A stretch of 64,000 nucleotides of DNA. It comes from Malania oleifera (Eukaryota > Streptophyta > Magnoliopsida > Santalales > Ximeniaceae). Both the position numbers and the translations under genes were made by a program. The notes below the pieces were generated by a model. The model was not told the DNA's origin and did no database searches. It worked only from the letters and a program-made list of their open reading frames with translations. Position 1 is the first letter of the stretch; each line of letters starts with the position of its first letter. The DNA lies in NCBI RefSeq assembly GCF_029873635.1, contig NC_080428.1:64041957-64105956 (forward strand), given 5' to 3'. Positions 3,709 through 52,741 of this stretch are shown in pieces.

Positions 3709-4038
3709 GGATGAAGTGCAATGAACACCATGATTGAGAAGACATTGTCAAGCTATCCCGTAGAATAAAATACAGTTAGAAATTATCTGTGCAAAGAGAT
3801 CCTTGTTCATGGCAAGTCACCCATCTGATCCCATGACTTGTTAGGCTGTCACGTGGATGACTCTGCTATGAACATGATCTGTTTGCGATAATTTTGAAGA
3901 AATTCCCATCTATAAATATAGGACTATTCATTAAGTCTGCAAAGAAATCTCTGTTCTTGGCAAGTCACCCATCTTATGAATTATATATAATTCTGCTAAT
4001 TGGATGACCATGCCAGGTTCAGGATCCATTTACAGTGA
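3709..4038 (-). ncRNA. unit A multi-hairpin precursor (two full stem-loops plus one arm)
   Basis: Not a recognised family. Stem-loop A3 has arms at about 3938-3974 and 4000-4038. Stem-loop A2 has arms at about 3788-3825 and 3853-3888. A remnant of A1 keeps only one arm (3709-3745), its partner having been lost before 3650. One arm of A2 reads GTTCATGGCAAGTCACCC and its partner GGATGACTCTGCTATGAAC, giving about 35 paired positions with small bulges, the shape of a plant microRNA foldback. A TATA box on the minus strand about 100 bp to the right makes minus-strand transcription likely. Identity as microRNA is inference; the foldback itself is visible. Confidence 0.7.
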
Positions 4039-4265
4039 TTTTAGTTTTTACAGAGACAACAAAACAAAATGTTATAGAAGGAAGAAATATGAGATGGAGG
4101 GAGAAGTGTGAGGATGAAGGCCAATGTGGTCTAGTATTTATAGGGAGAGTTCTGCAGTATTATATGAAATTACTGCCATGGAAATTGTGATCTCCCTTAT
4201 TTATTGTCTACATGATTTAGGGGATTCTAAATATCACGAATTTCTTGCATGCCCAAACCTCTAAA
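4039..4265 (-). promoter_or_regulatory. unit A core promoter and conserved upstream block
   Basis: TATAAATA on the minus strand (4135-4142) is followed by a pyrimidine-rich leader (cctcacacttctccctc). A block at about 4221-4260 (minus: GGCATGCAAGAAATTCGTG and atatttagaatcc) is conserved in the other units even where the sequence between differs. It contains the RY-like CATGCA core and a GTAC (4209 region in other units). Conserved position relative to the hairpins supports a promoter role. The factors are unknown. Confidence 0.6.
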
Positions 4266-4328
4266 AGGCAAAAAATAAAAATAAAAATCATATTTGCAAC
4301 ACACAAAAAGGTAAACGGCAGCACTATA

Positions 4329-4367
<39 letters not shown>

Positions 4368-5375
4368 AGGAGTTCTTAATTTAGGCATGGGAAATATTTG
4401 CAGTACAATGCTATGGTTAGTAAAATTTTCAATGCTTTATAACCAAATGGAAGTAGCAACATTAGTTGGGAAATGGGATGATGACATATTGGTATTACCA
4501 TCTTCCCAATTAACACAATTATGAGAAGCTACAAATTATGGTGTGTTGTGCTGTGCCATTCAACTTATTTTTTTCATTATCTACACTAGTAATTAAGAAA
4601 TATGAGGCAATTTTTAATTTACATATTTTCGTTTGTTCTTCTTAAAATACCCATTATGTTATAAGTTTATCTTTTAATTATTATAGATACATAAGCAATT
4701 AATAACATAATTTAAATTTTGAAAAAAAAAAATCTTTTGCTTGGAAGTTGTTTTCCAACTAGTATATGACAAATTGCAATAAAAGACTTTCTTTAATCTC
4801 CAAAACTCAATCTTAATTTTTTTTAATTTGAATATTTAAAATTTTAAAATTCTAACTACCTACCAATCAAAAATTTTCTTCACAATAAATTAATAAAATT
4901 AAATTTAAAACCCATATTTTCTTAAAATCATTATTAAATCATGTTCCCATAGCCGGGTTTTCTAATCACTAATTAACCATAAATTTATTGTTAGCTTTTT
5001 TCTTTTCAATCACTTTTTAATTACTAACGATTACAGCTTTTATACACACACATACACGTATTTTTTTCCCAATATAGTGAAAGGATTTAGCCATAAATTG
5101 ATCAACTACCTATAAAACAACTAGGGCATTAATGACATTGTGATTAGAAAATGCAACAATATTCTTTATTTATTTATTTTTTTCTCTCCTCAAAATGGAG
5201 GTGTTCTAGCAACCAATGCTCCACCCAAGCAATTGACAATTAACAAATATTATAAATCTAAAAAAAAAATTAGTTAATATAACAATTCTAGTCAAAGACA
5301 ATTTTTTGCTTTAAAATATCTATTTACAATTAACAGACCATGCAATATATTATAATTGGACTTTTAAACAGATTC
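4266..5375. repeat. unit A upstream flank with CT microsatellite, no gene
   Basis: Holds a (CT)n tract at 4334-4363, present at the same place in units B, C, D, E and H. It is followed by tgctacaaattatggtgtgttg and AT-rich DNA homologous to 6640-7440, 14280-14555, 17880-18490, 35130-35640 and 53090-53960. No open frame of interest. Confidence 0.6.
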
Positions 5376-6137
5376 TCATAAATCAGTTTCCTCTGCCATT
5401 GTTTCATCAGCTGGCGTCTCCACCTTGACACCAAGATCTTCAGAATAGTCACCGTAAACCTCCATCAGCTTTCCAAGATCGAATTTTGGAGCTTTCAGGA
5501 TCTTGACTCTACGAATGAAAACATTCTGTAGAGGATAGATGCTTGCCGTTGCCTTAACAATTTCTCGCCCAATAGATTCAGGAACGAACTTTGCCACCAG
5601 CTCCTTGAGGTCACAGGAAGATGCTTGGTTTATCATATGTTCTCTCATCTTTCGGCGAATCTGACGTATCTGGCTGGATTGGGCATAGCAGGTCTGCTTG
5701 ACCTGGTTTGTACGCTTCTTGGTAAGTGCGATGCAGAACATCCTAAGACTGCAGTTATCTGTTGTCTTCACATCAACATGAGCCTCAATCAAAGTCTGCC
5801 ACTTGCGAACCAACGACCCCAACTTGTCGGTGGTGAAATCCATACCCCAGAAGTTTGTGGGGACATTCTCCCCTGCACATCATCCGCTCTCAGTCGGATC
5901 TTCCTGTCGGACAGATCCTCATCATTGTCATTAATATCAGCTAGGCACATCTCGAACACTCCATGCTTGAGTCCTTCAGAAGCAATCTTGGTTCCCTGAG
6001 TTCGGGTAAAAGGGGTTCTGCCGACATTTCTGGTTTTGAAGGGGCGCAGGTGCCTTGATATCATACCAGTCCTTAGCGAACGGATCCGCCGCCTTCTTCT
6101 TCCCCTTGGATATCCTCTTGTTCTTTCCGACGGCCAT
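5376..6137 (-). pseudogene. RPS3A: processed pseudogene of 40S ribosomal protein S3a (eS1)
   Basis: Read from the ATG at 6137, the frame gives [20 protein letters not shown] and KAPAP, then after frame changes [60 protein letters not shown] and the C-terminus ending [13 protein letters not shown] with a stop. This is nearly the full length of plant RPS3A, a small-subunit ribosomal protein, with no introns although plant RPS3A genes have them. An extra C near 6045 (run of four C in the KAPAPF codons) and a lost base near 5854 (GGGAGAATGTCC) shift the frame twice, so no full-length protein can be made. The 5'UTR-like CTTCTGAAGCAAAACCCTAG runs directly into the first hairpin arm of unit B. No poly(A) remnant is evident at 5376. 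Processed origin is inferred from the missing introns. Confidence 0.92.
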
Positions 6138-6535
6138 TGCTAGGGTTTTGCTTCAGAAGCTGGAAGCAGGAGATAATATGAAAGTGGATGACAGTGCCAG
6201 GAAAAGGATACATTTGCAGTGATTTTAGTTTTTACAGACCCAATAGAACAAAATCTTGCAGAAGAAAGAAATATGCGATGGAGGGAGAAGTGTGAGGGTG
6301 AAGGCCAATGTGGAGAGTTCTGCAGCCTCGTCATATTAGAAATCTATTATATGGAATTACTGCCATGGAAATTATAATCTCCCTTATTTATTGTGTACAT
6401 GATTTCTGTCCTGGGATTCTACCAATTTCTTGCACGCCCAAACCTCTAAAAGGCAAAAAAATAAAAATCAAATTTTGCGACGCACAAAATAGGTAGTGGG
6501 CAGCCGTATGCCCACTCCTCTCTCTCTCTCTCTCT
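6138..6535 (-). promoter_or_regulatory. unit B hairpin arm and TATA-less promoter remnant
   Basis: 6184-6221 is one arm of stem-loop 3 (GGATGACAGTGCCAGG); its partner is missing because the RPS3A retrocopy begins where the loop should be. Compared with units A, C and H, the promoter lacks about 15 bp between CCAATGTGG and GAGAGTTC (near 6313). That removes exactly the TATAAATA box. The upstream block at 6414-6447 is shortened too. A CT tract ends the block at about 6518-6535. Probably a dead promoter. Confidence 0.7.
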
Positions 6536-7446
6536 CGCATAACAATGCTACGCAATGCAACATTAGGTGGGAACTGGGGTCATGACATATTGCTATTTTA
6601 CCGTCTTCCCAATTGACAATTACGAGTACGAGATGCTACAAATTATGATGTGTTGTGCTGTGCCATTTAATTTATTTTTTATATTATCTAAACTATTAAT
6701 TAAGAAATATGAGACAATTTTTAAAAATATTTTATTTACAAATAATTAAATAAAATATAAAATAATTAATTGCTTGGCACATTAATTGTCTCTTGAAATT
6801 GGTAAGATATTTAGAATATTTTATTTAAAAGCACAATTTCAGGAAATTTTTTAACTTCAAATGAAGCTATCAATAAATGAATTTTAAATTCATTCTATTT
6901 ATTATTTTACCAAATTAAATTTAAGTTGGCTCATTATTGCTTAAATTTTGCAAACCCCATTTAAATTTTAAATGAAATAACCAACTAGTCATTAAAAAAA
7001 TAAAAATAGTGAGAGAAAATTTTTGAATTTGTTACTTGAATTTGCCAACCGCACTAAGAATAGGCGAGGAAATGAAGATAATGGGGAAACCTCAATAATA
7101 TCATAATCGAACAGGAAAATTTTAATTTGCATATTTTTCTTTATTCGTATTAAAATACGCATTGTGGTACAAGTTATATTTTAATTATTATAGATACATA
7201 AGTAATTTAATAACATAATTCAAATTTTTTTTAAAAAAATCTTTTGCATCTAAGTATTTTTCCAACTAGTATATGACAAAGCATGATAAAAGACTCTCTT
7301 TAATCTCCAAAACTCAATTTTAATTTTGCTAATTTGAATATTTAAAATTTTAAAATTCTAACTACATACCAATCAAAAATTTTCTTTACAATAAATTAAT
7401 AAAATTTAATTTAAAATGCATATTATTATTATTAATAATATTAAAT
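6536..7446. repeat. unit B upstream flank, no gene
   Basis: AT-rich, homologous to the upstream flanks of the other units. The stretch 7010-7440 (tttgccaaccgcactaagaa onwards) is repeated directly at 14102-14555, so the 6.6 kb between them is bracketed by two copies of the same flank. Confidence 0.6.
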
Positions 7447-8463
7447 AGTTGTTACGACATTCCCGGACTCGAACTTGGGATGACTTAAAAATGATGTGTG
7501 ATTTTAAAAATGTGATTTTCGTGAAAAATAATGTGTCTGATGGAGTCGCTACTAACTTTTTAGTGTGGTTAGAACACTTGATTACTACCCAATTAAGGGT
7601 AGAATCAGTTTGCGCTATCAGAGTCGCTTTCATGAGTTCGGTTACATGAGAAGAAGGTATTAGCACCTCTTACGCGCCCGTTCTTACGAATGGTACCTAA
7701 TTAATCAAAAATTATCTCAACATAAATCTAATAAGTCTTCTTATTTTACTCCCTTTCAAAAAGTGAAGAAAATGCACAAAATAAAATACTATATAAGTAT
7801 CCCTCAGAACCGGGGCATATCATGCTCCAAAGAGCTCACGCCTCCCTTTTAAATCATCGGGATCGGAGAATCGAGAAAATAGTTTACGAAAATACACTCG
7901 TAGGATTTTTGAAATTTTTATAGAATTTTCTAAGTGTGAAAAATAAATAGTCCAGGAGTTTTTGGAATTTATTTGGGATGAAAAGAGTGCCAAAAATGAT
8001 TTTAAAGTCTTAAAATGTTTTTCCTGATTTTTCTCTATTTTTATGATTTTTTTATATTTTCCCAAATTTTGAAATAACAAAAGGGTGGTTAAAGCAAAAT
8101 CATGACAATCAAGTCCAAAAATATTTTTAGGTTTTTCTTATTTTTTTATGAATTTTCTAAGTCCAAAAAAGCAATTTCTAAACTAAATGTTTTTTGGATT
8201 TTGTGGTTTTTTTTCCTAATTTTTATGATTTTTCAAGTGCCAAAAACAATTTTCTAACCTTAAAATGTTTTTTTTTAGAATTTCTCTACAATTTTTATGA
8301 TTTTTTTGGGTTTTTTTTTTTTTTTTATGATTTTTGTTGAATTTAATTTTAAATAAAAATAAAAACTTTAAATCAGTTCCATACCGGTTCAAAGGACCCG
8401 AACCGGTTCGAAGAAGAATTAGTTCAAAAGGAGGGTAACATGTTTAAAGTCTGGTCAAGATCA

Positions 8464-8677: not shown

Positions 8678-9345
8678 TGTTGGGTTATTTCCTTCCATGT
8701 GGAGGAAAGCTCAAGTAGACTTTATTAAAAGACCAAAGTCCAGCACTTTTAGTGTGGAAAACCTAAAGGAAGTTATAAAAAGAGAGGAGAGAAGAGAGGA
8801 GCCGTCACTTCTCAAAAGAAAGAGAGAAAAACGTGGTTTTTTCTCATGCTGCCCAGATTTCATCAAATCTCCGATCCCGCTTTTTCTGTGATTTGATCGA
8901 GCTGAAAATTGGAGGAGAGGTTCATGACTCAAGGATCTATAATCTGAACGGTAAAGATCGGATTTGGAGCTCAGGAGTTGGGGTTTTTGCCTGTGAACAG
9001 TAACCGCGAATTTAGTATATTCTCTCTAATTCTCTATGTATTTGTCAAGATTGTAGATATCTTGATGAGAGATTTTTGTATCCTCTAATTACGATTAGTA
9101 AAGACTTTGTGTACCCATTATTTGATTGATAGTGGAGATTTTAACTGGACTAGGTCCCGTGATTTTTCTTCCTCACACCGAGGAAGTTTTTCACGTAAAA
9201 AACTGCTTGTGTTCCTGTGGCTTGGTGTGATTGATTATTTCTCTTATTATTTCTAGCACATATAAAAGTATAGATACACTATGTTTACTTGCATATAGGG
9301 AGAAGAATTATTCCGCTGTGGTTGTTTATTGATATTTCTCCCACA
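8678..9345 (+). repeat. 5' LTR of the copia element
   Basis: Starts TGTTGGGTTATTTCC and ends TTTCTCCCACA. It aligns along its length with 13401-14069. The shared block gaggagccgtcacttctc appears in both. The R/U5 part carries ggatttggagctc and cctctaattacgattag. Confidence 0.9.
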
Positions 9346-9348
9346 AAG

Positions 9349-9363
9349 TGGTATCAGAGCCCG
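9349..9363 (+). other. copia primer-binding site
   Basis: TGGTATCAGAGCCCG just after the 5' LTR matches the 3' end of plant initiator methionine tRNA, the usual primer of plant copia elements. Confidence 0.85.
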
Positions 9364-9395
9364 ATTTCTAGATTATCAGGTTGGCAGTTTGAGTT

Positions 9396-12300
9396 ATGGA
9401 AGCAAATACTAGTAGAATGATTAATCTCAATGGTTTAAATTATCACATATGAAAAGGAAAAATGGAGGATCTTCTTTATGTAAAAGATTATTACCTACGG
9501 GTATTTAGTGCTGAAAAACTAGAAAAAATGTCTAATGTGGAATGGACTTTGTTACATCAACAGGTGTGTGGGTATATCAGGCAATGGGTAGATGATAATG
9601 TTTTGAACCATATTAGTGGAGAAACAAATGCACGTTCTTTATGGAATAAGCTTGAACAGTTATATGCTATGAAGACTGGAAATAATAAGTTGTTTCTGAT
9701 TAAACAAATGATGAATTTGAGGTACCAAGATGGGACTCCATTATCTGATCACTTGAATACATTCCTAGGAATTATTAATCAGTTGGCTGGAATGGGTATT
9801 AAGTTTGATGATGAGATACAAGGGTTATGGTTACTTGGTTCGTTACCGAACTTGTGGGAGACGCTCAGAACTTCATTGTCTAACTCCGCTCCAGAAGGTG
9901 TAATCACAATGGATATGACCAAGAGTTGTTTACTAAATGAAGAGATGAGAAGAAAAACACAGGGGTCCTCTTCGCAGTCAGAGATCTTGGTTACAGAAAA
10001 GAGGGGGAGAAGTAAGAGCAGAGGTCCGAAGAACAGAGATAACAGCAGAAGCAAGTCCAACAAGTTTGCAAATGTTGAGTGTCATCATTGGGGGAAAAAG
10101 GGACACATCAAGAAATATTGCAGGCAATTGAAGAGAGAAAACAAGAATGAGAAAGGGAAGGGAATGAAGAAAGGAGATAACAAAGATGGTGATGATAGAG
10201 TTGCTACTACCACTCCTGCAGAATTCCTCATTGTTTATGATGATGAGATGATAAATGTTGCATATTATGAGATCAGTTGGGTGATTGACAGTGGTGCCTC
10301 CATTCATGCTATATCTCGGAAGGATTTCTTTACAACCTATAGATCTGGTGACTTTGGAACAGTAAAGATGGGAAACGATGGCTTGGTTAAAGTCATTGGA
10401 ATTGGGGATGTGTATCTGAAGACAAAGAATGACATGAGTTTAGTTCTTAGAGATGTGAAACATATTCCTGACATTCGTTTGAATTTGATTTATGCAAGTA
10501 AACTTGATGACGAAGGGTACTACAGCACTTTCAGTGATGGCCAGTGGAAGCTCACCAGGGGTGCTATGGTTGTGGCTTCAGGCATGAAGCACTCTACATT
10601 GTACATTCTGCAAGCAAAGATCTCCAACGACATTATTAATGCGATGGAGGATAATGGTCTAGTAGAGTGGTGGCACAAGAGACTGACTCACATGAGTGAG
10701 AAAGGATTAACTCTATTGGGGAAGAAAAGTCTACTATGTGGACTAGAAAGTACACTTCTGAAAAGGTGTACTCATTGTTTGTCAGGGAAGCAGAGTAGAG
10801 TTTCCTTCAAGAATTCCCCTCATTCTAGAAAGTCAGAGATACTGGATTTAGTACATTCGGATGTGTGTGGCTCTATGAAGACGAGAACACTTGGTGGCTC
10901 CAGATACTTTGTGACCTTCATAGATGATCATTCAAGGAACTTATGGGTATATATCTTGAAGTCAAAAGACCAAGTGTTGGCTGAGTTTAAGAAATTTCAA
11001 GCCCTAGTTAAGAGATAGACTGGAAAGAAACTGAGGTGCATTCGGACTGACAACAGTGGAGAGTATTCTGGTCCATTTGATGAGTATTGCAAACAACAAG
11101 GTATTTGGCATCAAAAGACTCCTCCAAAAACTCCTCAATTGAATGGCATAGCAGAAAGGATGAACAAAACACTGCTTGAGAGAGTGAGATGTGCTTTCAC
11201 AAGACTGGTTTCCAAAATCCTTTTAGGGGGAGCCATTGAGCACTGTAGTTCATGTGTTGAATCTTACACCCTGTGTTCCTCTACAGTTTGATGTGCCAGA
11301 CCGAGTTTGGACAGGTAAGGATGTTTCCTATAATCATTTATGTGTTTTTGGGTGCAAAGCATTTGTGTATATTCCAAAAGATGAAAGGTCCAAACTTGAT
11401 TAGAAAACGCGACAGTGTATATTCCTTGGTTGTGGTCAAGATGAATTTGGATACAAGCTTTATGATCCAGTTGAGAAGAAAATTGTGAGAAGCAGAGATG
11501 TCGTGTTTGTAGAAGATCAGACGATTCAGGATATTGAGAAGGCAGAGAAACCTATGTCTCAGCAGGGTGACAGTTTAACTGATGTGGATCCAGTTCCTTT
11601 GAAGAATTTTTCATCTCAAGTTGAGAATGATGTTCAGGATGACCACCAGGGTAGAGGTGATATGAATGTTCCCTTATAGGTTCAGGGAGATGTTGAGACT
11701 AATGAGCAATTGATAGTGCCAGAGACTCCACCATAGAATCCATCAAGGAGGTCAGCCAGAGACCGACATCCTTCCACTCGGTATTCAGCAGAACAATATG
11801 TATTATTGACTGACGGGGGAGAGCCCCAGTGTTTTTCTGAAGCCATGGAAGATGAACACAAGACAAAGTGGGTTGAGGCCATGCAAGATGAGATGCAGTC
11901 ATTGTATAGTAACCAAACCTTTGAGTTAGTGAAGCTGCCTAAAGGAAAAAGAGCTTTGGAGAACAAGTGGATTTACAAGAAGAAGCCAAATGAGTTCTCT
12001 TCACGACCACGGTATAAAGCTAGATTGGTTGTCAAAGGGTTCGGTCAGAGAAAAGGTATTGATTTTGATGAGATCTTCTCTCCAACTGTAAAGATGTCAT
12101 CGATCCGTACAGTACTCGGCTTAGCAGCTAGTCTTGACTTTGAAGTTGAGCAGATGGATGTGAAAACTGCCTTCCTTCATGATGATTTAGAGGAAGAGAT
12201 TTATATGAAGCAGCTAGAGGGTTTCAGAGTGAAAGCGAAAGACGATTATGTGTGCAAACTGAAGAAAAACCTATATGGTTTGAAACAAGCACCGAGACAG

Positions 12301-13394: not shown

Positions 13395-13400
13395 GAGATT
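13388..13400 (+). other. copia polypurine tract
   Basis: AAATGGGGAGATT directly precedes the 3' LTR TGTTGGG. It is the plus-strand primer site in the expected place. Confidence 0.8.
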
Positions 13401-16740: not shown

Positions 16741-16995
16741 TTAATTTCTATTTACAGAAAACGAAATCTTTGAAACCAATTTGAGCATGATCAACCCTTG
16801 TTGCAAACCCATCCACTTGAGAATCAGCGACCCTTGGAAGCCCTGACCTTGTGTATAATCTGCAAGTGCAAACCTTATATTATATAGTAAGATACGAATT
16901 GCAAAGGGCAGAAAGTTTACCTTTGCCTGCAAAGCTGGAGGCCTCAATTCAAACAGATCAGGAGTGTAAATAGATTGTTGTTCAAGGCGATTCAT
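16741..16995 (-). other. conserved 3' segment of unit C transcript, 84-codon frame, coding doubtful
   Basis: An open frame starting MNRLEQQSIYTPDLFELRPP has a close relative in unit H (52000-52272), ending FSVNRN and FSVKRN. It lies downstream of the hairpins on the minus strand and its start overlaps one arm of stem-loop 0. I recognise no domain. GTAAAC at 16915-16920 and a CAG at 16860-16862 could be a 61-nt intron, shorter than usual for plants. Conservation may reflect recent unit duplication, not selection for a protein. Confidence 0.35.
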
Positions 16996-17523
16996 TTATC
17001 TTACTCCTAATTAGCTAAAATACATGAATTGCCTTGAACACAATCCATTTACATTGATCAATCTCTTATATATTATACTGTTTCAAAAGAAATCATTGTA
17101 GTAAAGAGATCTCTGTTCATGGCAACTCACCCACCTGCTTCTTTCTCAATTTTATCCTAAAGAGTTTATTATATATATATGGATGAAGTGCCATGAACAG
17201 GATCCGTTTACCATGATTGAGAAGACGTTGGCAAGCCATTCCCGTAGAAGGAAATATAGTTAGAAACTATCTGTGCAAAGAGATCTCTGTTCATGGCAAG
17301 TCACCCATCCGATCCCATGACTGATTAGGTTGTCAAGTAGATGACTCTGCCATGAACATGATCAGTTTGCAATAATTTTGAAGAAATTGGCCGTCTCTAA
17401 ATACAGGGCTAGAAGAAATCAAGTCTGCAAAGAGATCTTTGTTCGTGACAAGTCACCCATCTTGTGAATTATATATAATTTTACTAAGTGGATGACTGTG
17501 CCACGAACAAGATCCATTTACAG
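16964..17523 (-). ncRNA. unit C multi-hairpin precursor (four stem-loops)
   Basis: The most complete unit. Arms pair at C0 16964-17000 with 17021-17056; C1 17100-17134 with 17179-17214; C2 17272-17309 with 17336-17371; C3 17424-17462 with 17487-17523. Stems are about 33-38 bp with small asymmetric bulges. The common core on the plus strand is GTTCATGGCAAGTCACCC facing GATGACTCTGCCATGAAC. Pairing survives sequence change. In C0 TTCAAGGC (16981) faces GCCTTGAA (17031), where C1 has TTCATGGC facing GCCATGAA. In C3 TTCGTG faces CACGAA. A TATA box about 80 bp to the right points to minus-strand transcription. Best reading: a polycistronic microRNA-like precursor of unknown family. An inverted-repeat siRNA source is an alternative. 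Confidence 0.8.
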
Positions 17524-17760
17524 TGATTTTAAAACAAAATGTTACAGAAGAAAGAAATATGAGACGGAGGGAGAAGTGTGAGGGTTAAGGCCAATGCGGT
17601 TTGGTATTTATAGAGAGCGTTCTGTAGTCTCATTTTAGAAATCTATTATATGGAATTACTGCCATGGAAATTGTGATCTCCCTTATTTATTGTGTACATG
17701 ATTTCTGTTATGGGATTCTAAATATCACAAATTTCTTGCATGCCCAAACCTCTAAAAGGC
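17524..17760 (-). promoter_or_regulatory. unit C core promoter
   Basis: TATAAATA on the minus strand at 17605-17612 is followed downstream by CCAAACCGCATTGGCC and a pyrimidine-rich leader. The conserved upstream block lies at about 17718-17756 (plus: GGGATTCTAAATATCAC, cttgcatgcccaaacc), with CATGTACAC near 17693-17701 giving a GTAC core. The same layout is found in A, D, E and H. Confidence 0.65.
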
Positions 17761-18632: not shown

Positions 18633-18660
18633 AGAAGTTGGAAATAGGAGATAAAATGAA

Positions 18661-18786
18661 AGTGGATGACCATGCTAGGAATAGGATACGTTTACAGTGA
18701 TTTTAGTTTTTACAGAGTCAATAGAACAAAATGTTACAGAAGAAAGAAATATGAGGTGGAGTGAGGTGTACGGGTGAAGGCCAATG
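18661..18786 (-). ncRNA. unit D: first hairpin arm and leader, disrupted
   Basis: One stem-loop-3 arm (GGATGACCATGCTAGGAATA, 18664-18699) and the pyrimidine-rich leader remain. The partner arm is replaced by the RPS3A fragment. A gypsy element separates this from its TATA box at 26267-26275. CAATG at 18782-18786 is the left target duplication. Confidence 0.65.
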
Positions 18787-19851
18787 TGTGACGTCCACAA
18801 AATTCTCACCATTTTTTTTAAGTCATACAACCATTTATACTGTACAATACCAGAACTTAGAATACACAAACCATAGTCATATTTAAAAACTCTCTCCAGT
18901 ATCACCTATCCAAAAAATACAAAACTCTGTCACAACTCATCCTACAATCAGGGTAACCAAGTAACCTCACTATCTGCGAGTCTAATCTGCTCGTCTAGTT
19001 GACTCACTTGAAAAATGGTAAAGTAATGGGGTGAGACGACGCTCAGTAAGTGGAAATATGCTATTACTAGTGTGTCACGACCGAGTCGTAAAACTATAAT
19101 AATAATAATATTTAAAACTGCATGATCTAGAAAAACTATAAAACAAAAATATAGTAGCTTAAAACATTTGTATCATCTGAACTTTCTATCATTCATACCG
19201 TTATATCATACTATATACGACAAAAGTTGTAAAAACTGTATACATATACACATACATAACTGTGTTATTTCCCTGGGATTCTATATGTCATGATTTGACC
19301 CTTCATGACAGGGTTGTGTGGCTCGTAGGCGGGACTTAACCTGGTCGGCCCCCCAAGTAAGTCATCATACTCTACACTACCTCAGCCCGACTAAACTGCA
19401 TCCACTCCTAAGCTCGGGACTGGCTGCTACCTCATCAAACTGGCCCCTTCAACTCAGTGAACTAGGGCGTTGCATCCTCTCCGAGCACAGTTTGACGATA
19501 CCTACACACTTTCTGAGATATGTGATTGCACTCTATTCTGTATATAGAAACGGTACCGTACTCTATAACTGTATCTGTCTATAATCTTTCCACAGGGATC
19601 TGATACTATATACATATATACTATACTTTTCTTTTTTTTAACTGTTTTCATTATATTTCCAAAATAACCATAACACAATTAATCTGAATTGTAAATATTG
19701 TAATATCTGTAGCATCTTAATGCTATAACTGTATAATCTGTTTGTATTTTCTATCTGTGTAATCTCTTTGTATACTCTGAGTGTTATGGCATTTAGGAAA
19801 ACATAACATTCTGTAAATACTATGCATACTCATATGAATAAACATCTGTGT

Positions 19852-26255: not shown

Positions 26256-26498
26256 CAATGTGGTTTCGTATTTATAGGGAGAGTTTTGTAGTCTCATCAT
26301 ATTTAAATTCTATTATATGAAATTACTACCATGGAAATTGTGATCTCCCTTATTTATTGTGTGCATAATTTCTATTTTGGGATTCTAAATATCACGAATA
26401 TCTTGCATGCCTAAACCTTTAAAAGGCAAGAAAAGGTAAAGGGCAACCCTATGCCCACCTCTCTCTCTTTCACATCGGAGATGAGCAGCTTAGCCATG
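26256..26498 (-). promoter_or_regulatory. unit D promoter, cut off from its hairpins
   Basis: The right duplication CAATG (26256-26260) is followed by TATAAATA on the minus strand (about 26268-26275), the conserved upstream block (26376-26415) and a short CT tract. Ten bases separate the TATA box from the gypsy insertion, so any transcript would begin inside the LTR. Confidence 0.65.
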
Positions 26499-30636: not shown

Positions 30637-30818
30637 CCATGTCATCCCAATCAATGGTCTTCAATGACCATGCGAGGAACAGGATAGGTTTACAGTGACT
30701 TTTTTTTTTACAGAGGCAACAGAACAAAATTTTATAGAAGAAAGAAATATGAGATGAAGGGAGAAGTGTGAGGGTGAAGGCCAATGTGGTATGGTATTTA
30801 TAGGGAGAGTTATGTAGC

Positions 30819-30825
<7 letters not shown>
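30637..30825 (-). ncRNA. unit E: hairpin arm, leader and TATA box
   Basis: After the CCATG duplication, one stem-loop-3 arm remains (ATGACCATGCGAGGAACAGG, 30667-30699). It is followed by the leader and TATAAATA on the minus strand (30795-30802). The partner arm was lost. Positions 30813-30825 are the left copy of the LINE duplication TGTAGCCTCATAT, 11 bp from the TATA box. Confidence 0.65.
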
Positions 30826-30861
<36 letters not shown>

Positions 30862-34938: not shown

Positions 34939-34954
34939 ATCTGTAGCCTCATAT

Positions 34955-37172
34955 TAGAAATCTATTATATGGAATTATTACCATGGAAATTGTGATCTTC
35001 CTTATTTATTGTGTACATGATTTCTGTTCTAGGATTCTAAATATCACGAATTTCTTGCATGCCTAAACCTTTAAAAGGCAAAAAATAAAAATAAAGGGCA
35101 GCCCTATGCCCACCTCTCTCTCTCCCTCCTAAGGAGTGACAATTACAAGATGCTACAAATTATGATGTGTTGTGCTGTGCCATTTAATTTATTTTTTCAT
35201 TATCTACACTACTAATTAAGAAATATGAGGTAATTTTTAATTTGCATATTTTCCTTTGTTCTTCTTAATATACCCATTAAGTTACAAGTTATCTTTTAAT
35301 TATTATAGATACATAAGCAATTTAATAACATAATTTAAATTTTGAGAAACAAAAAAAAAAATATCCTTTGCTTGGAAGTATTTTTCCAATTAGTATATGA
35401 CAAAGCATGATAAAATACTCTCTTTAATCTCCAAAACTCAATTTTAATTTTTTATAATTTGCATATTTAAAATTTTAAAATTCTAACTACATACCAATCA
35501 AAAATTTTATTTACAATAAATTAATAAAATTAAATTTAAAACCCATACTTTTATTAATAATAATATTAAATCATGTGCCTATAGCCTAGTTTTCTAATCA
35601 CCTCTTAACGTTAAATTTATTGTTAGTCTTTTTTTTCTTCAATCACTTTTTATATTGCTAAGGATTATAGCTTTAGCTAGTTATATATATATGATAGCAA
35701 AAATAGAAAATAGGTGTATTAAAATAAAAAAGAAAAGAAAATTTTGGAGACCCAAAACACGTGATTTATCTCACTTTTTTTTTTCTTTTTTTCTTTTTTT
35801 TTTTTAATGTAGCGAAAGGTTTCAACCATAAATTGATCCCTAAAGTAATTGAAATCAAAACATTCGAGGTTCCAAATTCGCTAAAAGATTTAACAGCAAA
35901 AAGAATTCTCACAATGACTATATATATATATGTTTGATAACTATGTTTGACAATTTGCAATTAGTAGTTTTTTTTGTATAATATTTTTTTTGGGATCAAT
36001 AACATTTGTGGTTTAATTGAATTCCACTTAATTTGAAATGATTTAAACAGTTACACCTCTTGTTTCTTTGTTCATGGGAGATCTACAAGATTAGACAATG
36101 AAAGATTATTTACCCATTAATCCATATTTTTAATACGCCTCTTTGTTAAATTCAAACGTTAAATTTCTACATGAAAATAATTAACATTGACTACAAGGAA
36201 AAAATAAAATAGAGAGAAATCTTAACATGGATAGTCTATTTATTCCTTTAAATTAAAGATTTGGAAACTGAAGTAAAAAAAAATAAAAATTGCTTATCCA
36301 AAAGAGTAAGAAGCCTATACCCAGATAAGTTTATAACATTGCCAATTGTTGTGTAAATGATATAAATATAATATAAGAATGATAGACTAGACTTAGTTTT
36401 TCATTTTTAATTACCACTGGTCAAACATTTTTGTTAAGAAATTATATTGTTTGTAAGTAAACTTAACATAATTTTAGCTTTAGATATCATGATCATATTT
36501 GTAAAACGCTTAAAGCCCTTATTGGATAATGACCCTTTTGTTTCACCATCAACATTACTTATTTCAAACTCGATTATTTTTGCGATGACTTGATAATATT
36601 CAACTTTTTAAGATGCTGTTGAGCATTGTTTAATTAGTAAATTTAAACTTTCCTAGTTAGATAATAGAATTTTAAAGTTGAAGGTTACACTTTTTAATTA
36701 AAACCCGACCTTTTTATTTAATTAAAGACCAGAGTAGCAAGCCCATTACCCTGAGGAATTAATCGAATATACTAGCGTGAAACTAAAGAGACTTGGACCC
36801 CCATTGTTTCAAGACCAAAAGTAACTATAATAAAAAATTAATTAAATTAAAAGAGTCATATATTTTTTTAGTTAACAGGCTTGAGGTAAATTTAAGCAAA
36901 AACACTACAAGAACAATTAAACCATCCCTTCTTGAAAAGTGTATCTCAGGAACATACTTTAATCTACTGTTTTTGTTTTAAGAATTTCAACTTGCTTAGA
37001 ACTCATTTTGTATTATAACTTGTGTTAGTTTTAATACCAAATTTGCATTCAACTTGTCAAATTATTATTGTGATAATTTCTAATGGTCGCATATGACAAT
37101 CTAGAAGCCAGTAACTCAATTTATTTATAGGAATGGTTACTTCAACATTCAATTCAACATAAGATAGTGTAT
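34955..37172. repeat. unit E upstream block and AT-rich flank, no gene
   Basis: 34955-35070 is the unit E conserved promoter block (GGATTCTAAATATCACG near 35032). A short CT tract follows at 35113-35126, then shared flank. 35600-36480 repeats at 37580-38160, 47560-48170 and 53950-54470. 36480-36780 repeats at 54480-54780. No credible coding frame. Confidence 0.55.
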
Positions 37173-39010: not shown

Positions 39011-39100
39011 AATAAAATAGAAATGGAGAATGTTTACTATTGTTTCTACCATCATCTCAGAATCGTTCGTTCGGATGTGTACAATCACAACTGATAAGGG
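37173..39100. repeat. left part of duplicated segment (copy F), no gene
   Basis: Begins agaagcaagtaatcgg and is nearly identical to 47137-49125. Contains AT tracts, an AAAAGAAAAG-rich block near 38470-38505 and (AT)n(GA)n at 38957-39007. No gene. Confidence 0.7.
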
Positions 39101-39479
39101 GTGTAAAGAGATTGTTGTTCAAGACAATTCATTTATCTTACTTCAGCATATATATATTGGCATATACAATAAAACATATGAATGACCTTGAACACAATCC
39201 ATTTAGACCGATCAATCTCATGATTTATGATCATATATCACAAATGCTGCAAAAGAAATCAAACCAATAAAGAGATCTCTATTCATGACAATTCGCTCAT
39301 CTATTTTCTTTCCTGATTCTTATCTTAAAAGATGAATGAAGTGTCATGAGTAGGGATCATTTAGAAGACACAGATCATACCTGCAAAGAGATCTCTGTTC
39401 ATGGCAAATCACCCATCTCTTAACTTTTGAATGGTTGTATTAAGTGGATGATTGTGCCATGAACAAGATCCATTTGCAG
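39101..39479 (-). ncRNA. unit F multi-hairpin precursor (three stem-loops)
   Basis: F2: arms 39381-39417 and 39441-39479, reading GTTCATGGCAAATCACCC against GATGATTGTGCCATGAAC. F1: arms 39266-39301 and 39331-39364. F0: arms 39101-39138 and 39175-39206 with TTCAAG facing CTTGAA. In F1 both arms changed together relative to the other units: TTCATGACA (39282-39290) faces TGTCATGAG (39342-39350), so the G-C pair became A-U. This unit is clearly diverged from A, C and H, yet keeps stems, order and spacing. Minus-strand transcription is inferred from the TATA-like box to the right. The 76- and 84-codon frames here run through the arms and are not genes. Confidence 0.78.
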
Positions 39480-39700
39480 AAAATGTTGACAGAAGAAGAA
39501 GGAGAAACTATGCCATGGCTGGCATTCGCCATGGGAAGAGCTCTGTTTGATGTGGGGGTGGATGCCTATTCGCTGGCTACTTATAATGGGTTGCAGCTTC
39601 AAATCAAAATCTCCCTAATTAATTTTCTGCATCATAAGATTGATATTTGGGATTCTAAGTATCACGAATTCCTTGCATGCCCAAATCCCAATAAATAAAA
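39480..39700 (-). promoter_or_regulatory. unit F promoter with divergent TATA box
   Basis: The minus strand has ATTATAAGTAGCC (39576-39588), about 100 bp before the first hairpin arm. The leader between differs from the other units. The block at 39649-39689 (plus GGGATTCTAAGTATCAC, cttgcatgcccaaat) is still conserved and so stands out as a candidate regulatory element. Confidence 0.55.
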
Positions 39701-40722
39701 TAAATAAATAAGAAAAGGAAAAGACAGAAGAAATTCCTTTCTACCCTAATGAGGAAGTCACCCCATTCTCTCTCTCTCATGGATGTTGACATGGAATGCA
39801 GCAAATTCTATCATGGAAATAGGAATGCCTAGACAAACAGGCCCTGTTTGGGATGTGAGAAATGGAAAAGGAAAGCATTGAGAGAGAGAGAGAGAGCGAG
39901 AGAATATTTGGAGCGTGGCATTGATTATAAAAGAAAGAGAAAATAAAAGAAAATAATATGTAAAAATAGAAACAAAGAAATTTTGGTAAATAGTAAGAAC
40001 ATCACATTTTCTAAAAAAGTGATGGATGTGTGGGAGACTTTATGAGACCCTTATAAAATGGCTTTAAGCTATTCACTAATTTAATGATAGCTTGATCATC
40101 TTACTCCATCCTTTCTTTTCTCTTTTTTTAAATTAGCCAAATTAATAATATGAGATCTAGACATTACTCTGATGATTTCCAGACTAATTGTGAACCGCCC
40201 CAATTAATTAGGCTTAAAATTTTTTTAAAAGTAAAAATAAAAATAAAAATAAAAGGAAGATAACATAGTCATCCTTATATATTTTGTTGAGTTTGCTTAA
40301 GTGATAAGATTGAAATTGGACTTTGATGATTTCAAGATTACAAATTTGATTTTTCACTTATGGTTTGTCGAATGAATTACTAGCGATGCGTCATTGGATA
40401 AATACTAGTGTTTTCCCCCTTTGGGTGCTGCTTGGATGGATTTGAAGGGTTTGTAAAAATTATTTTTCATATTTAGTTATCAAGAAAAAAAATATTATGT
40501 ATGTGTATATATGTATAATACAAATAAATAAATTAACAAATAAAAAAACACTTTTATCTGTTATTAACTTTGATTTTTCGTGATTTATAATTACATTACA
40601 ATAAATTTTCATTTGACTTGATATTGGGGGAAAATACAATCCAAGTGATTTTTTATTTTTTTTTTTATTTTTTGCTTTTCTCAATAACTACATTACAATA
40701 AAAAAAAATTTTATTTTCTTTC
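39701..40722. repeat. right part of duplicated segment (copy F), no gene
   Basis: Nearly identical to 49726-50745 apart from small indels. 40288-40455 holds the dispersed SINE-like module. The host reading ttattttctttct is broken at 40723 by an LTR; the same text continues uninterrupted at 50735 (tttctttctcatttgcc). Confidence 0.7.
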
Positions 40723-46168: not shown

Positions 46169-46213
<45 letters not shown>

Positions 46214-46473
46214 TCCCTTCTTCCTCTTTGCTGGTTTTGAGCTTCTCACTCTTCTGCACACACCATTACATCTTCCACAACCCTCTATTTATAGGGCTTG
46301 GAATTTAAATCACAATTAAAATAAAATCAATCATGAATGGAAGTTACAATGGAGAGGTTAATGGAGAGATAAATTGCACTAATTTCAACGCGTTTTCCAA
46401 CTCAGCTCCATGAATGGTCTGCCTCTCCAACTCAGCTCTAACTCCTGGCTGTCTTCTGGTTTCAGCTCTAACA
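46050..46473 (-). repeat. copia LTR (424 bp), antisense
   Basis: Plus-strand ends TGTTAGGAACC and CAGCTCTAACA. It is followed on the left by the primer-binding site (sense direction) and on the right by a polypurine-like AAGTGGGAGAT (minus, about 46474-46485). Internal-region sequence therefore lies on both sides. Contains a (CT)n tract at 46172-46210 and TATAAATAG on the minus strand at about 46284-46293. Confidence 0.85.
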
Positions 46474-46740
46474 ATCTCCCACTTGGAGATAGAGACGCCT
46501 CCTCAACTAGTATCATGAATAAATGATGTGCTTAAAACATATGTCTTCAGGCATGAAGATCAACTGAAGTTGAACACAACTTCAGCTTCTCTATAGTTAC
46601 CATCTTCCTGTCTGCTCGATTCCTGTGGACTAATTTGATGGTTGTCATCTTCACAACTGGTGTAAAAATGACATCTCATCATTCTCGAAAGCAATATTTG
46701 CTTCTGTCTTTGCCCTCGTCAGCAGGTGCCACGTCAGCAT
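46474..46740 (-). mobile_element. copia 3' internal tail plus a stray gag-region piece
   Basis: 46474-46670 is the region that normally precedes a 3' LTR (polypurine tract at 46474-46485). 46671-46718 repeats 44464-44512 of the same element (acatctcatcattctcg, cttctgtctttgccctcgtc). A TGCCACGTCAGC-like leader piece then precedes the inverted LTR. This indicates a tandem or rearranged second copy. Confidence 0.65.
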
Positions 46741-47136
46741 TGTTAGAGCTGGAGCTAGAAGACTGCCAAGAGCTGGAGCTGAGTTGGAGAGGCGGATCTT
46801 TCATGGAGCTGAGTTGGAAAACGCATTGAAATTAGTGCAATTTATCTCTCCATTAACCTCTCCGTTGTAACTTCCATTCATGATTGATTTTATTTTAATT
46901 GTGATTTAAATTCCAAGCCCTATAAATAGAGGGTTATGGAAGATGTAATGGTGTGTGCAGAAGAGTGAGAAGCTCAGAGCCAGCAGAGAGGAAGAAGAGA
47001 GAGAGAGAGAGAGAATTGTAATTTTTTCGGCGATAGTGAATATTTGGTGTGTGCTCCGTGGTCGTAAGTCATTATTCACCGAACCACGTTAAATCTTTGG
47101 TGTCACTTTGATCTGGATGCTCACAGGTTCCTAACA
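46741..47136 (+). repeat. second copia LTR (396 bp), inverted relative to the first
   Basis: Starts TGTTAGAGCTGGAG and ends CAGGTTCCTAACA, with CTATAAATAGAGGG near 46921 and a (GA)n tract near 46997-47014. It is the reverse complement of 46050-46473 with differences, so the two LTRs form a large inverted repeat. Its right end abuts duplicated host segment G exactly. Confidence 0.85.
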
Positions 47137-49035: not shown

Positions 49036-49125
49036 AATAAAATAGAAATGGAGGATGTTTACTATTGTTTCTACCATCATCTCAGAATCGTTCGTTCGGA
49101 TGTGTACAATCACAACTGATAAGGG
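47137..49125. repeat. left part of duplicated segment (copy G), no gene
   Basis: Near-identical to 37173-39100, with a longer (TA)n at 47736-47785 and longer (AT)n(GA)n at 48957-49032. No gene. Confidence 0.7.
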
Positions 49126-49504
49126 GTGTAAAGAGATTGTTGTTCAAGACAATTCATTTATCTTACTTCAGCATATATATATTGGCATATACAATAAAAC
49201 ATATGAATGACCTTGAACACAATCCATTTAGACCGATCAATCTCATGATTTATGATCATATATCACAAATGCTGCAAAAGAAATCAAACCAATAAAGAGA
49301 TCTCTATTCATGACAATTCGCTCATCTATTTTCTTTCCTGATTCTTATCTTAAAAGATGAATGAAGTGTCATGAGTAGGGATCATTTAGAAGACACAGAT
49401 CATACCTGCAAAGAGATCTCTGTTCATGGCAAATCACCCATCTCTTAACTTTTGAATGGTTGTATTAAGTGGATGATTGTGCCATGAACAAGATCCATTT
49501 GCAG
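49126..49504 (-). ncRNA. unit G multi-hairpin precursor (three stem-loops)
   Basis: Copy of unit F at an offset of 10,025 bp. From the hairpins through the promoter I see no substitution (G0 49126-49231, G1 49291-49389, G2 49406-49504). Both copies keep the paired arms and the compensatory change in stem-loop 1. The flanks differ by scattered substitutions and microsatellite length, so the hairpin part looks at least as conserved as its surroundings. Confidence 0.78.
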
Positions 49505-49725
49505 AAAATGTTGACAGAAGAAGAAGGAGAAACTATGCCATGGCTGGCATTCGCCATGGGAAGAGCTCTGTTTGATGTGGGGGTGGATGCCTATTCGCTG
49601 GCTACTTATAATGGGTTGCAGCTTCAAATCAAAATCTCCCTAATTAATTTTCTGCATCATAAGATTGATATTTGGGATTCTAAGTATCACGAATTCCTTG
49701 CATGCCCAAATCCCAATAAATAAAA
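49505..49725 (-). promoter_or_regulatory. unit G promoter
   Basis: Same as unit F: minus-strand ATTATAAGTAGCC at 49601-49613 and the conserved block at 49674-49714. Confidence 0.55.
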
Positions 49726-51999
49726 TAAATAAATAAGAAAAGGAAAAGACAGAAGAAATTCCTTTCTACCCTAATGAGGAAGTCACCCCATTCTCTCTCT
49801 CTCATGGATGTTGACATGGAATGCAGCAAATTCTATCATGGAAATAGGAATGCCTAGACAAACAGGCCCTGTTTGGGATGTGAGAAATGGAAAAGGAAAG
49901 CATTGAGAGAGAGAGAGAGAGAGCGAGAGAATATTTGGAGCGTGGCATTGATTATAAAAGAAAGAGAAAATAAAAGAAAATAATATGTAAAAATAGAAAC
50001 AAAGAAATTTTGGTAAATAGTAAGAACATCACATTTTCTAAAAAAGTGATGGATGTGTGGGAGACTTTATGAGACCCTTATAAAATGGCTTTAAGCTATT
50101 CACTAATTTAATGATAGCTTGATCATCTTACTCCATCCTTTCTTTTCTCTTTTTTTAAATTAGCCAAATTAATAATATGAGATCTAGACATTACTCTGAT
50201 GATTTCCATGACTAATTGTGAACCGATGCAATTAATTAGGCTTAAAACTTAAAAAAAAAATAAAATAAAAAATAAAAGGAAGATAACATAGTCATCCTTA
50301 TATATTCGTTGAGTTTGCTTAAGTGATAAGATTGAAGTTGGACTTTGATGATCTCAAGATTCCAAACTTGATTTTTCACTTATGGTTTGTCGAATGAATT
50401 ATTAGCGATGCGTCAATGGGTAAATATTAGTGTTTTCATCCTTCGGGTGCTACTTGGATGGATCCGAAGGGTTTGTAAAATTTTTTTTTCATATCTAGTT
50501 ATCAAGTAAACAAAAATTATGTATGTGTATATATGTATAACATAGATAAAAAAATTAACAAATAAAAAAAATACTTTTACCTGTTATTAACTTTGATTTT
50601 TCGTGATTTATAATTACATTACAATAAATTTTCATTTGACTTGATATTGGGAGAAAATACAATCCAAATGAATTTTCATTTTTATTTTTTTGCTTTTCTC
50701 AATAATTACATTACAATAAAAAATAAATTTATTTTCTTTCTCATTTGCCTTGATAACCAAACATGAAAATGAGGGCTATTTTATATTTTTCTTTCCTTTC
50801 CCTGATATTTTTTTGAGCTCCAAATAGGGCCTTAAGGATCTGTTTGAATCAAAGATTTTACGAGAGGAAAAGAAAGGATAATAAAAAGAAAACTCATTTT
50901 CCTTCTCTATTAGATATTCAAAAATGAAAGTTTGTTTTAATATAATTACAAATTAGGGAAAAAATAAATATTAATGATGTGTAAAATCAAAATTTTGTTC
51001 ATAAATTTGGTACGGATTTCTTGATATTTTCCTATCTTTTCCCTAATATTTTTAGAGTTCCAAATAGGACTAAAAGAAGAATGTAATTAAAAAAAATTCA
51101 TACAATGTATGAAAATAAAGACAAAGGAAAAGACAATCATGTTTTATTTTCATGTTTATTGTCACCACACTACGCAGGGTCGCAACACATAATTACATTA
51201 ATTTGTTTAAAAAGTATGTGAGTTAGATATCAAAACATTGGTAAATAAAGTGTGGTAATGAATCAAACATATATCATTTCTATTGAAATGTTGGTGAATA
51301 CTTTACAAGGAGGGGCCCAAAATTTTTTTACAACAATGTGTGAAGTGTTATTATATGAATCACATGAATTGTTACTCTTCTCATATTTCTTTTTTGTTTT
51401 TTTCAGATTTTCTCTGTGTGTGTGCATATATTCATAGGTCATTTTTCAAACAGAGAGTCTATGGACAAAATTGACATACTATTTTACTTAGTTTGGATCT
51501 AATAATTTTGAAAGAAAAGAAAATAAATGTCGTACAAAGATTTTGCATCAACCATTGATAGTATAATTGTGGGTGGTACAAAGTTAACTTCATTTTGATG
51601 TATGCAATTGAATAAGCAAAAGTTTAAATTGTAACCCTACTCCATTAGATTATCATTAGCCATGAAAGCTTAAATAAATAATGATTTATGGCAATTGAAG
51701 AATGCTAAAATAACTTTCCTTTATCAATTGTAACGTATGAAACAATCACTTGTCTTTGATAATCGAAATTTTAGGAGATGCAGAAATCAAGGAAAATTGA
51801 TTTGCATTAAAATGTATAACAAAAAAATTTATTTTCCTTGTAATGAATCAGAACGCAAGTCCATTGCAAGAAAGCTTTAAATCCTTATTTTATTGAACAA
51901 AGCACTAACTATAACAAAGAAAAAAAATTGTGAGCCCAGCCCCCTTTACAACTCCCTACAGAACTTGAACTTGCTCCTTTCGATCATACATCTATACAA
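49726..51999. repeat. flank between units G and H, no gene
   Basis: 49726-50745 repeats 39701-40722, including the SINE-like module at 50312-50475. 50745-51470 repeats the unit A and C flanks (2990-3700, 15900-16270). 51470-51999 repeats 16240-16740. AT-rich, no gene. Confidence 0.6.
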
Positions 52000-52272
52000 T
52001 TAATTTCTCTTTACAGAAAACGAAATCATTGAAACCAATTTGAGCATGATCAACCCTTGTTGCAAACCCATCCACTTGAGAATCAGCAACCCATGGAAGC
52101 CCTGACCTTGTGTATAATCTGCAAGTGCAAACCTTATATTATAAAGTAAGATACAAATTGCAAAGGGCAGACAGTTTACCTTTGCCTGCAAAGCTGGAGG
52201 CCTCAATTCAAACAGATCAGGAGTGTAAATAGACTGTTGTTCAATCCATGAATTGCCTTGAACACAGTCCAT
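52000..52272 (-). other. conserved 3' segment of unit H transcript, 90-codon frame, coding doubtful
   Basis: The frame starts MDCVQGNSWIEQQSIYTPDL and is a close relative of the 84-codon frame in unit C; most differences are single substitutions. No known domain or signal peptide. It may simply be the downstream part of the hairpin transcript. Confidence 0.35.
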
Positions 52273-52741
52273 TTACATTGATTGATCTCTTGTATATTGT
52301 ATTGTTTCAAAAGAAATCATTATAGTAAAGAGATCTCTGTTCATGGCAACTCACCCATGTGCTTCTTTCTCAATTGTGAATTTTATATATATATGGATGA
52401 AGTGCCATGAACAAGATCCATTTACCATGATTGAGAAGACATTGGCAAGCCATCCCTGTAGAAGAAATATAGTTAGAAACTATTTGTGCAAAGAGATCTC
52501 TGCTCATGGCAAGTCACCCATCCGATCTCATGACTTGTTAGGCTGTCACATGGATGACTCTGCCATGAACATGATCAATTTGCGATAATTTAGAAGAAAT
52601 TGGCCGTCTCTAAATATAGGGCTAGAAGAAATCATCAAGTCTGTAAAGAGATCTCTGTTCGTGGCAAGTCACCCATCTTGTGAATTATATATAATTCTAT
52701 TAAGTGGATGACTGTGCCAGGAACAGGATCCATTTACAATG
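52223..52741 (-). ncRNA. unit H multi-hairpin precursor (three stem-loops plus one shortened)
   Basis: H1: arms 52324-52358 and 52394-52430 (GTTCATGGCAACTCACCC against GATGAAGTGCCATGAAC). H2: arms 52486-52522 and 52550-52584. H3: arms 52641-52679 and 52704-52741. H0 has lost its loop and part of one arm (52223-52244 against 52246-52280). Order, spacing and the TATA box to the right match unit C. H2 carries GCTCATGG where others have GTTCATGG, giving a G-U-type change. Confidence 0.78.

Follow-up and report, generated by a model that had tools for sequence, protein, structure and literature searches.

Clusters of related MIRNA hairpins are known from plants, and the available part of PMC2812943 describes rice MIR395 clusters of up to eight such hairpins. 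Another multi-copy system is found in the parasitic plant Cuscuta campestris, whose trans-species MIRNA loci have in common a U-snRNA-type upstream element and Pol III features (PMC10226582). According to PMC6917502, the Cuscuta miRNA superfamilies vary with a three-nucleotide period. The window analyzed here, a stretch of 64,000 nucleotides from Malania oleifera, contains a family of hairpins in which the original prediction saw a lineage-specific microRNA or foldback-siRNA cluster, unusual in kind and possibly an undescribed system. The former idea agrees with our results, since the family is amplified, polycistronic in appearance, significantly folded and covarying, has no Rfam match at gathering score, and its unit C cluster matches lie on a single chromosome. 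The latter is not supported in view of PMC2812943: clusters of related MIRNA hairpins were already known and, as a consequence, we regard the family as new but the kind of cluster as known, and do not see a new system in it. We consider it probable (about 0.78) that the locus is a lineage-specific MIRNA family, polycistronic and transcribed by Pol II, which local duplication has enlarged.

Hairpins and TATA boxes of the window

On the minus strand there are 16 foldbacks, distributed over units A (two), C (four), F (three), G (three) and H (four), as expected from the original prediction of five units with two to four foldbacks each. Since F and G are not independent (0 substitutions over 1168 bp), the foldbacks represent 13 distinct hairpins and not 16. 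The hairpins of all five units listed below come from folding against shuffles, and the TATA boxes from a string scan.

3937..4035, minus strand, unit A hairpin a
3790..3888, minus strand, unit A hairpin b
About 3660-3735, remaining 5' arm and loop of the lost hairpin c of unit A, after hairpin b
17425..17524, minus strand, unit C hairpin a
17274..17372, minus strand, unit C hairpin b
17100..17213, minus strand, unit C hairpin c
16964..17054, minus strand, unit C hairpin d
39382..39479, minus strand, unit F hairpin a
39266..39366, minus strand, unit F hairpin c
39102..39208, minus strand, unit F hairpin d
49407..49504, minus strand, unit G hairpin a, same sequence as F hairpin a
49291..49391, minus strand, unit G hairpin c, same sequence as F hairpin c
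49127..49233, minus strand, unit G hairpin d, same sequence as F hairpin d
52641..52740, minus strand, unit H hairpin a
52487..52585, minus strand, unit H hairpin b
52324..52427, minus strand, unit H hairpin c
52220..52283, minus strand, unit H hairpin d, without its loop side
4135..4142, minus strand, unit A TATA box TATAAATA
17605..17612, minus strand, unit C TATA box TATAAATA
52839..52846, minus strand, unit H TATA box TATAAATA
39578..39585, minus strand, unit F TATA-like box TATAAGTA

Two or more hairpins thus lie on one strand within 1 kb, which is one feature of a polycistronic MIRNA cluster, a single transcript being the other, and pairing is better in the minus-strand letters (336/352) than in the plus-strand ones (311/352). 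The order of the hairpins is constant, as had been predicted, although the units are not all complete: d and half of c are missing from A, b is absent in F and G, and the loop-side stem of H_d is gone. With up to 3 mismatches allowed, the 18-base arm core predicted to be common to the units was matched 12 times, where 0.04 matches would be expected.

The predicted minus-strand TATA box beside every unit was found as TATAAATA at A, C and H, whereas F and G have only the TATA-like TATAAGTA, which in G starts at 49610 on the minus strand. TATAAATA is also kept in unit fragments at 30802 and 26276 of the same strand. The distance from the TATA box to hairpin a is 85-110 nt, and in the four distinct window units (4/4) a TTTT run lies between the box and the arm of hairpin a; such runs would end Pol III transcripts, which disfavors this polymerase. 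TATA-like strings are frequent in the window, three variants occurring at 20 minus-strand places, 7 of them within units or unit fragments.

Folding, covariation and duplication history

When the minus strand was folded, 15 of the 16 foldbacks lay below all 500 dinucleotide shuffles and the energy of G_c was matched by 1/500, with z from -4.9 to -9.9 across the 16; the family therefore passed the folding check proposed with the original prediction. Outside the window, 9/9 hairpins folded below 200/200 shuffles. Strong foldbacks per se are not rare in the window. What distinguishes these hairpins from the other foldbacks is their family likeness together with covariation. Among the 13 hairpins, 22 covarying cells were counted versus 6.4 in shuffles (0/500), and two-sided change was seen in 10 pairs versus 4.1 (0/500). 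With 21 hairpins the covarying cells were 35 versus 12.2 (0/500), and the excess of pairs changed on both sides was only moderate (8 versus 5.0; 5/500). Further pair types were not above shuffles in either set (188/500 with 21 hairpins, 99/500 with 13). The stems keep pairing via compensatory changes.

Annotation of plant MIRNA genes asks for a precursor below 300 nt, for a duplex in which no more than 5 positions are unpaired and no more than 3 lie in asymmetric bulges, and for small RNAs cut precisely from the two arms. The hairpins of the family are shorter than 300 nt and fold better than shuffles. In a common 3p register, all 12 scorable hairpins of the 13 distinct ones in the window stay within the duplex limits; H_d is not scorable in this register and exceeds them in 5p registers. 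Mismatch and bulge positions recur from hairpin to hairpin, the 5' arm of most a and b hairpins being bulged by one nucleotide, and the least variable part is the 3' arm. The conserved arms, of about 35 nt, exceed the length of one miRNA and, for this reason, the mature register is ambiguous.

No Rfam 15 family matched at gathering score anywhere in the window (0 matches), and unit C gave only weak below-threshold matches scattered over unrelated families. This is in line with the original prediction, which named no plant microRNA fitting the arm core, and a likeness to miR169, miR167 and miR398 was rejected as unsupported by any Rfam match. In addition, no miRNA with these arms appeared in open-access full texts searched with 13- to 15-letter pieces of both arms in U and T forms; the pieces matched PMC10609543 (Lactobacillus) and PMC6364482 (human cancer), neither of them a miRNA paper. 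A study of Malania miRNAs was not among the papers listed in the literature searches (15 of 2,223 and 12 of 158,178), which is not proof of absence.

The hairpins cluster by position (a to d) and not by unit, and the unit copies sit within longer stretches that were duplicated locally and share one orientation. Truncated copies and the tract common to F and G are as follows.

6182..6536, minus strand, truncated unit B, with the 5' arm of hairpin a, the leader and the upstream part
18660..18788, minus strand, truncated unit D, with the 5' arm of hairpin a and the leader
30664..30843, minus strand, truncated unit E, with the 5' arm of hairpin a, the leader and the TATA box
26256..26434, minus strand, upstream fragment with TATA box, without hairpin
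34940..35095, minus strand, upstream fragment without hairpin
39030..40197, no strand, tract without F-G substitutions, within a duplicate of 3.6 kb that has 107 substitutions; its copy lies near 49055-50223

Unit B has its TATA region deleted and adjoins an RPS3a retrocopy. The tract without substitutions appears conversion-like. Between F and C the arms are better preserved than other sequence, 183/210 aligned arm bases being kept with 7 indel bases, versus 200/259 aligned bases with 161 indel bases in non-arm sequence; this contrast depends on an alignment in which F_a was matched to C_b. In A, C and H, which are young units, the arms are not clearly less diverged than other parts, the C-H differences being 17/268 in arms, 11/154 in spacers and 11/96 in loops.

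Search of the 1.49-Gb Malania oleifera genome, in which match counts are lower bounds, placed 15/15 matches of the unit C cluster (at least 15) on chromosome C12. They fall in eight units. Five of these are the units of the window, two are clusters at a distance of about 20 kb, and one, which has two hairpins, is 3.7 Mb distant. Beyond these, pattern searches gave a lone hairpin, a decayed hairpin and, on C8, a truncated hairpin-less fragment (L070). A viral-contig match (L001) was discarded as chance, as it covers 18 bases only and a model search finds nothing there. In the two most diverged units, detectable likeness to the compared units is confined to 265/3256 bases (L007) and 114/3001 bases (L047). 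Hardly anything but the hairpin stretch is recognizable in them, which suggests selection on the hairpins.

Proposed mechanism, targets and alternative readings

In a MIRNA family of this kind, transcription by RNA polymerase II would begin some 30 nt below the TATA box of the minus strand. The primary transcript would contain between two and four of the hairpins a to d, and a DICER-LIKE enzyme would release from each a duplex of about 21 nt. Owing to the 5'-arm bulge, most a and b hairpins could yield a 22-nt 5p (TGTTCATGGCA...TCATCCAC type), a candidate 3p being ATGGGTGACTTGCCATGAACA, and ARGONAUTE loaded with one strand, whichever acts, would act in trans to silence mRNAs. As to its history, the locus has grown by hairpin duplication within a unit, then by whole-unit duplication, and later truncations and the F/G conversion-like event followed.

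A convincing target was not found in genome searches with the hairpin a 5p and the 3' arm. The former gave 13 matches versus 4 in the reversed control: eight family hairpins, truncated unit B, the truncated relic on C8, two sites in frames that on visual reading look like Gypsy reverse transcriptase (L067, L068) and one in no recognized gene (L069). The matches outside the locus were 4, equal to the reversed-control number. One TIR-NBS-LRR gene has a 1-mismatch copy of the hairpin 3' arm and its tandem sister a copy with 3 mismatches; the other four of six matched genes are without it. The site is outside the conserved R-gene motifs, and the best 5p target score is 4.5, which is poor. By our rough estimate, a likeness of such length would occur by chance about once per genome of this size. 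This gene as possible origin or target of the hairpins is a weak lead.

Young hairpin-siRNA (proto-miRNA) genes, that is, transcribed foldbacks diced imprecisely by DCL2, DCL3 or DCL4 with no single mature species, would explain why the paired arms are conserved over about 35 nt, beyond one miRNA duplex, and why the family is lineage-specific with copies of differing age. However, mismatch and bulge positions recur, the duplexes stay within miRNA limits and the arms outlast the flanks, so that we give this explanation a rather small share of the probability. The five truncated units or fragments and the shortened H_d could also point to a once functional cluster whose window copies are no longer expressed; the stems are intact in C, F, G and most of H, which makes this unlikely. 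A MITE-like foldback transposon family fits the multi-copy foldbacks of a transposon-rich region and is the least credible explanation, because the unit C cluster matches (15/15, a lower bound) are confined to C12, unlike a dispersed transposon, and lie in local same-orientation duplications. Dispersed full-length copies were not found in the genome search, whose counts are lower bounds, C8 holding one truncated hairpin-less fragment.

Within the MIRNA-family explanation there is a special case, that the miRNAs act on host mRNAs as in Cuscuta. Malania oleifera is a root hemiparasite, as stated in the accessible part of PMC12310656, the family is multi-copy and the bulge could give 22-nt products. 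Against this, the TTTT runs before hairpin a are unfavorable to Pol III. The U-snRNA upstream element is not in excess either, having 26 matches at up to 2 mismatches versus 27.7 expected, none of them perfect or with 1 mismatch. Arm variation in the 13 hairpins has no three-nucleotide period (phase sums 26/27/24 and 13/22/18), unlike the Cuscuta superfamilies of PMC6917502. Action on hosts is therefore improbable, and it is equally improbable that a Santalales root hemiparasite independently evolved an amplified, Pol II-driven polycistronic MIRNA family with 22-nt products acting on host mRNAs. If this were true, trans-species miRNAs would have arisen a second time, and under promoters that follow another logic than those of Cuscuta. 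If expressed, the locus would be a young MIRNA family whose birth has left its record in duplicated hairpins and clusters, truncated copies, a conversion-like tract and remote units in which hardly more than the hairpin is left, and a handle on the small-RNA biology of a parasitic plant order.

Comparison with described systems

Lineage-specific miRNAs directed against NB-LRR genes, as described in the available part of PMC6651130, resemble the Malania family in being young and multi-copy, and one TIR-NBS-LRR gene carries a near-copy of the 3' arm. In contrast to them, the Malania site is off the conserved R-gene motifs, scores poorly and is limited to two tandem genes. The trans-species loci of Cuscuta campestris (PMC10226582) are likewise multi-copy MIRNA-type loci in a parasitic plant, whereas neither the U-snRNA-type element with Pol III features nor the three-nucleotide period of Cuscuta was found for the Malania hairpins. 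As in the MIR395, MIR169 and MIR166 clusters, related hairpins lie on one strand within a few hundred bases and have spread by tandem and segmental duplication (PMC2812943, in its available part). Those families are old and conserved, whereas the arms of the Malania family match no Rfam family at gathering score and the family is known here from one genome.

Hairpin structure and its conservation

Folded as minus-strand sequence, the five units gave 16 hairpins (two in A, four in C, three in F, three in G and four in H), with z-scores between −4.9 and −9.9. An 18-base core shared by the arms had been proposed in the original prediction, and it was indeed repeated in the window (12 matches at up to three mismatches versus 0.04 expected). 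The predicted folding also withstood comparison with 500 dinucleotide shuffles on the minus strand, since 15 of the 16 hairpins lay below all of them and the other was reached once. A covariance model trained on minus-strand sequences of the 13 distinct window hairpins recovered all 16 on that strand and the same 16 places on the plus strand at lower score; this preference is not independent of the minus-strand training, and the training sequences match by construction. Strong foldbacks per se are not rare in the window, where a scan for at least 30 pairs gave 64 plus-strand and 66 minus-strand foldbacks. Energies of −25 kcal/mol or lower were found for 21 and 24 of them, respectively, family hairpins being 12 of those 24. 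What distinguishes the hairpins is their family structure.

The alignment of the 13 hairpins contained 28 consistent pairs, with standard pairs in 95.5% of 352 cells, and a control with the structure slid along the alignment was at most 41.8% paired. Two-sided changes affected 22 cells and 10 pairs versus 6.4 and 4.1 in shuffles (neither reached in 500), while further pair types were not in excess (99/500); as the shuffles ignore the relatedness of the hairpins, these covariation counts are not probabilities, and the same applies to a set of 21 hairpins (12 from the window, without the fourth hairpin of H and with G the same as F, plus nine from outside). In this set, 35 cells changed on both sides versus 12.2 in shuffles (0/500), as did eight pairs versus 5.0 (5/500), and further pair types were reached in 188 of 500 shuffles. 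The hairpin structure is maintained across the family. Standard pairing was higher with minus-strand letters (336/352) than with plus-strand letters (311/352), and most foldbacks, not all, had the lower folding energy on the minus strand.

Duplication of the units and their relatives in the genome

When the 13 hairpins were placed in a tree, each of the positions a to d fell on one side of a branch, with full support for d only, so the multi-hairpin arrangement seems to predate unit duplication. A, C and H are young copies. C and H differ at 17/268 arm, 11/96 loop, 11/154 spacer and 15/207 upstream bases, and the similar divergence of arms, loops, spacers and promoter in A, C and H gives little information on selection. 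Unit F is older. A global alignment with C, which matched F_a to C_b, kept 183 of 210 aligned arm bases with seven indel bases, versus 200 of 259 with 161 indel bases in the rest; F still has 73–75% similarity to units A and C over about 100 nt upstream. F and G belong to a 3.6-kb duplication, in which 3551 bases of F carry 107 substitutions. Within it, 1168 bp over the whole cluster (39030–40197 and its unit G copy) show no substitution and one 2-base indel, the next-longest substitution-free run being 140 bp. Gene conversion would leave such a tract, which may alternatively be an assembly artefact.

The window (C12:64041957-64105956 of the 1.494-Gb assembly) has a GC content of 34.5%; the published Malania assembly is described as 1.51 Gb with 35.8% GC (PMC6377399). 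The unit C cluster as genome query gave at least 15 matches, all on C12 (counts are lower bounds), which covered the five window units and the first three loci below.

Family members outside the window on C12
64.019/64.022 Mb pair: L006, a further cluster with three hairpins, and L004, a further cluster with four
67.78 Mb: L007, a two-hairpin unit
67.7056 Mb, opposite strand: L047, a lone hairpin (pattern search, 63.8 bits)
69.65 Mb: L033, a decayed hairpin recognized by eye, where the covariance model finds none

Overall, the model found 26 hairpins in nine units, including G's three copies of those of F. Detectable likeness was limited to 1493–1757 of 3256 between L007 and five other units, and to 1395–1508 of 3001 between L047 and three units. 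The hairpins have outlasted their flanking sequence.

Other repeats were observed as follows.

Other repeats and truncated units
5379–6137, minus strand: intronless RPS3a (eS1) retrocopy with seven in-frame stops, adjoining truncated unit B (6182–6536) directly downstream of its leader
18572–18788: fragment D, with the same RPS3a/leader junction as B
8678–14066: Copia-type element with gag and reverse transcriptase, bounded by direct repeats (8678–9343 and 13401–14066, 92% identical)
15641–15853: AT-rich foldback within the unit C duplicated flank, 92-nt arms, 82% complementary
46200–47014: inverted repeat, 276-nt arms 263 nt apart, 93% complementary
4602–4942, 7113–7447, 14215–14557, 18369–18514, 35225–35574 and 53640–53960: repeat of up to about 340 bp, with more copies than the hairpin clusters
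C8:50355156 (L070, from 1501): truncated hairpin-a 5' arm and leader, resembling truncated units B, D and E by eye

Among the matches listed, the Malania oleifera protein is closest to the retrocopy (91% identity), with no more than 86% for the 119 others. Intron-containing RPS3a genes on C4 gave 84–98% per piece against the Malania protein, the pieces extending into introns.

Predicted expression, processing and targets

A minus-strand TATA or TATA-like box stands 85–110 nt before hairpin a in A, C, F and H, and such a box was seen by eye in L004, L006 and L007. TTTT runs lie between this box and the hairpin a arm in all four distinct window units and no excess of matches to the U-snRNA upstream element was detected in the window, both of which make transcription by Pol II likelier than by Pol III. 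With a common 3p register, duplex geometry could be scored in 12 of the 13 distinct hairpins and all 12 passed, H_d being too damaged. A one-nucleotide 5'-arm bulge, common to most a and b hairpins, could give a 22-nt 5p. The 3' arm is the less variable (minority letters in 53/462 cells versus 77/460 in the 5' arm).

Searching the genome for the 3p complement at up to three mismatches gave 31 matches versus five in the reversed control. The 13 with no or one mismatch were all inside family hairpins, and the four with two mismatches were two unit C hairpins, the decayed copy and one TIR-NBS-LRR gene, where the match is antisense and falls in the C-JID region. Three mismatches were seen in 14 matches, ten of them outside C12, and inspection by eye of the reading frames at these ten sites revealed no convincing target. 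The TIR-NBS-LRR mRNA, carrying a near-copy of the 3' arm, could pair with the 5p strand; the best score over the 21 hairpins was 4.5 (lower is better), the usual limit being 4. The site has three mismatches in the tandem sister gene and is absent from the other four genes found. These tandem genes (L048 and L050) are on C8 at about 2.64–2.66 Mb, the near-copy being in one of them. The hairpin a 5p complement gave 13 matches versus four in the control, nine of them at the locus itself. Neither genome search established a target.

Comparison with known systems

No Rfam family reached its gathering score in the window, and no miRNA with these arms turned up in searches of open-access texts. Malania belongs to the Santalales and is described as a root hemiparasite (PMC12310656). 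A reading of the hairpins as trans-species miRNAs has a low probability: Cuscuta loci have an upstream promoter element and a three-nucleotide period of variation, and both were sought in the window family and neither was found. The idea of an undescribed system, raised in the original prediction, gives way to a narrower one, since clusters of related plant MIRNA hairpins have already been described, with up to eight in rice MIR395 (PMC2812943). The hairpins are therefore most likely a new family within this known clustered-hairpin type.
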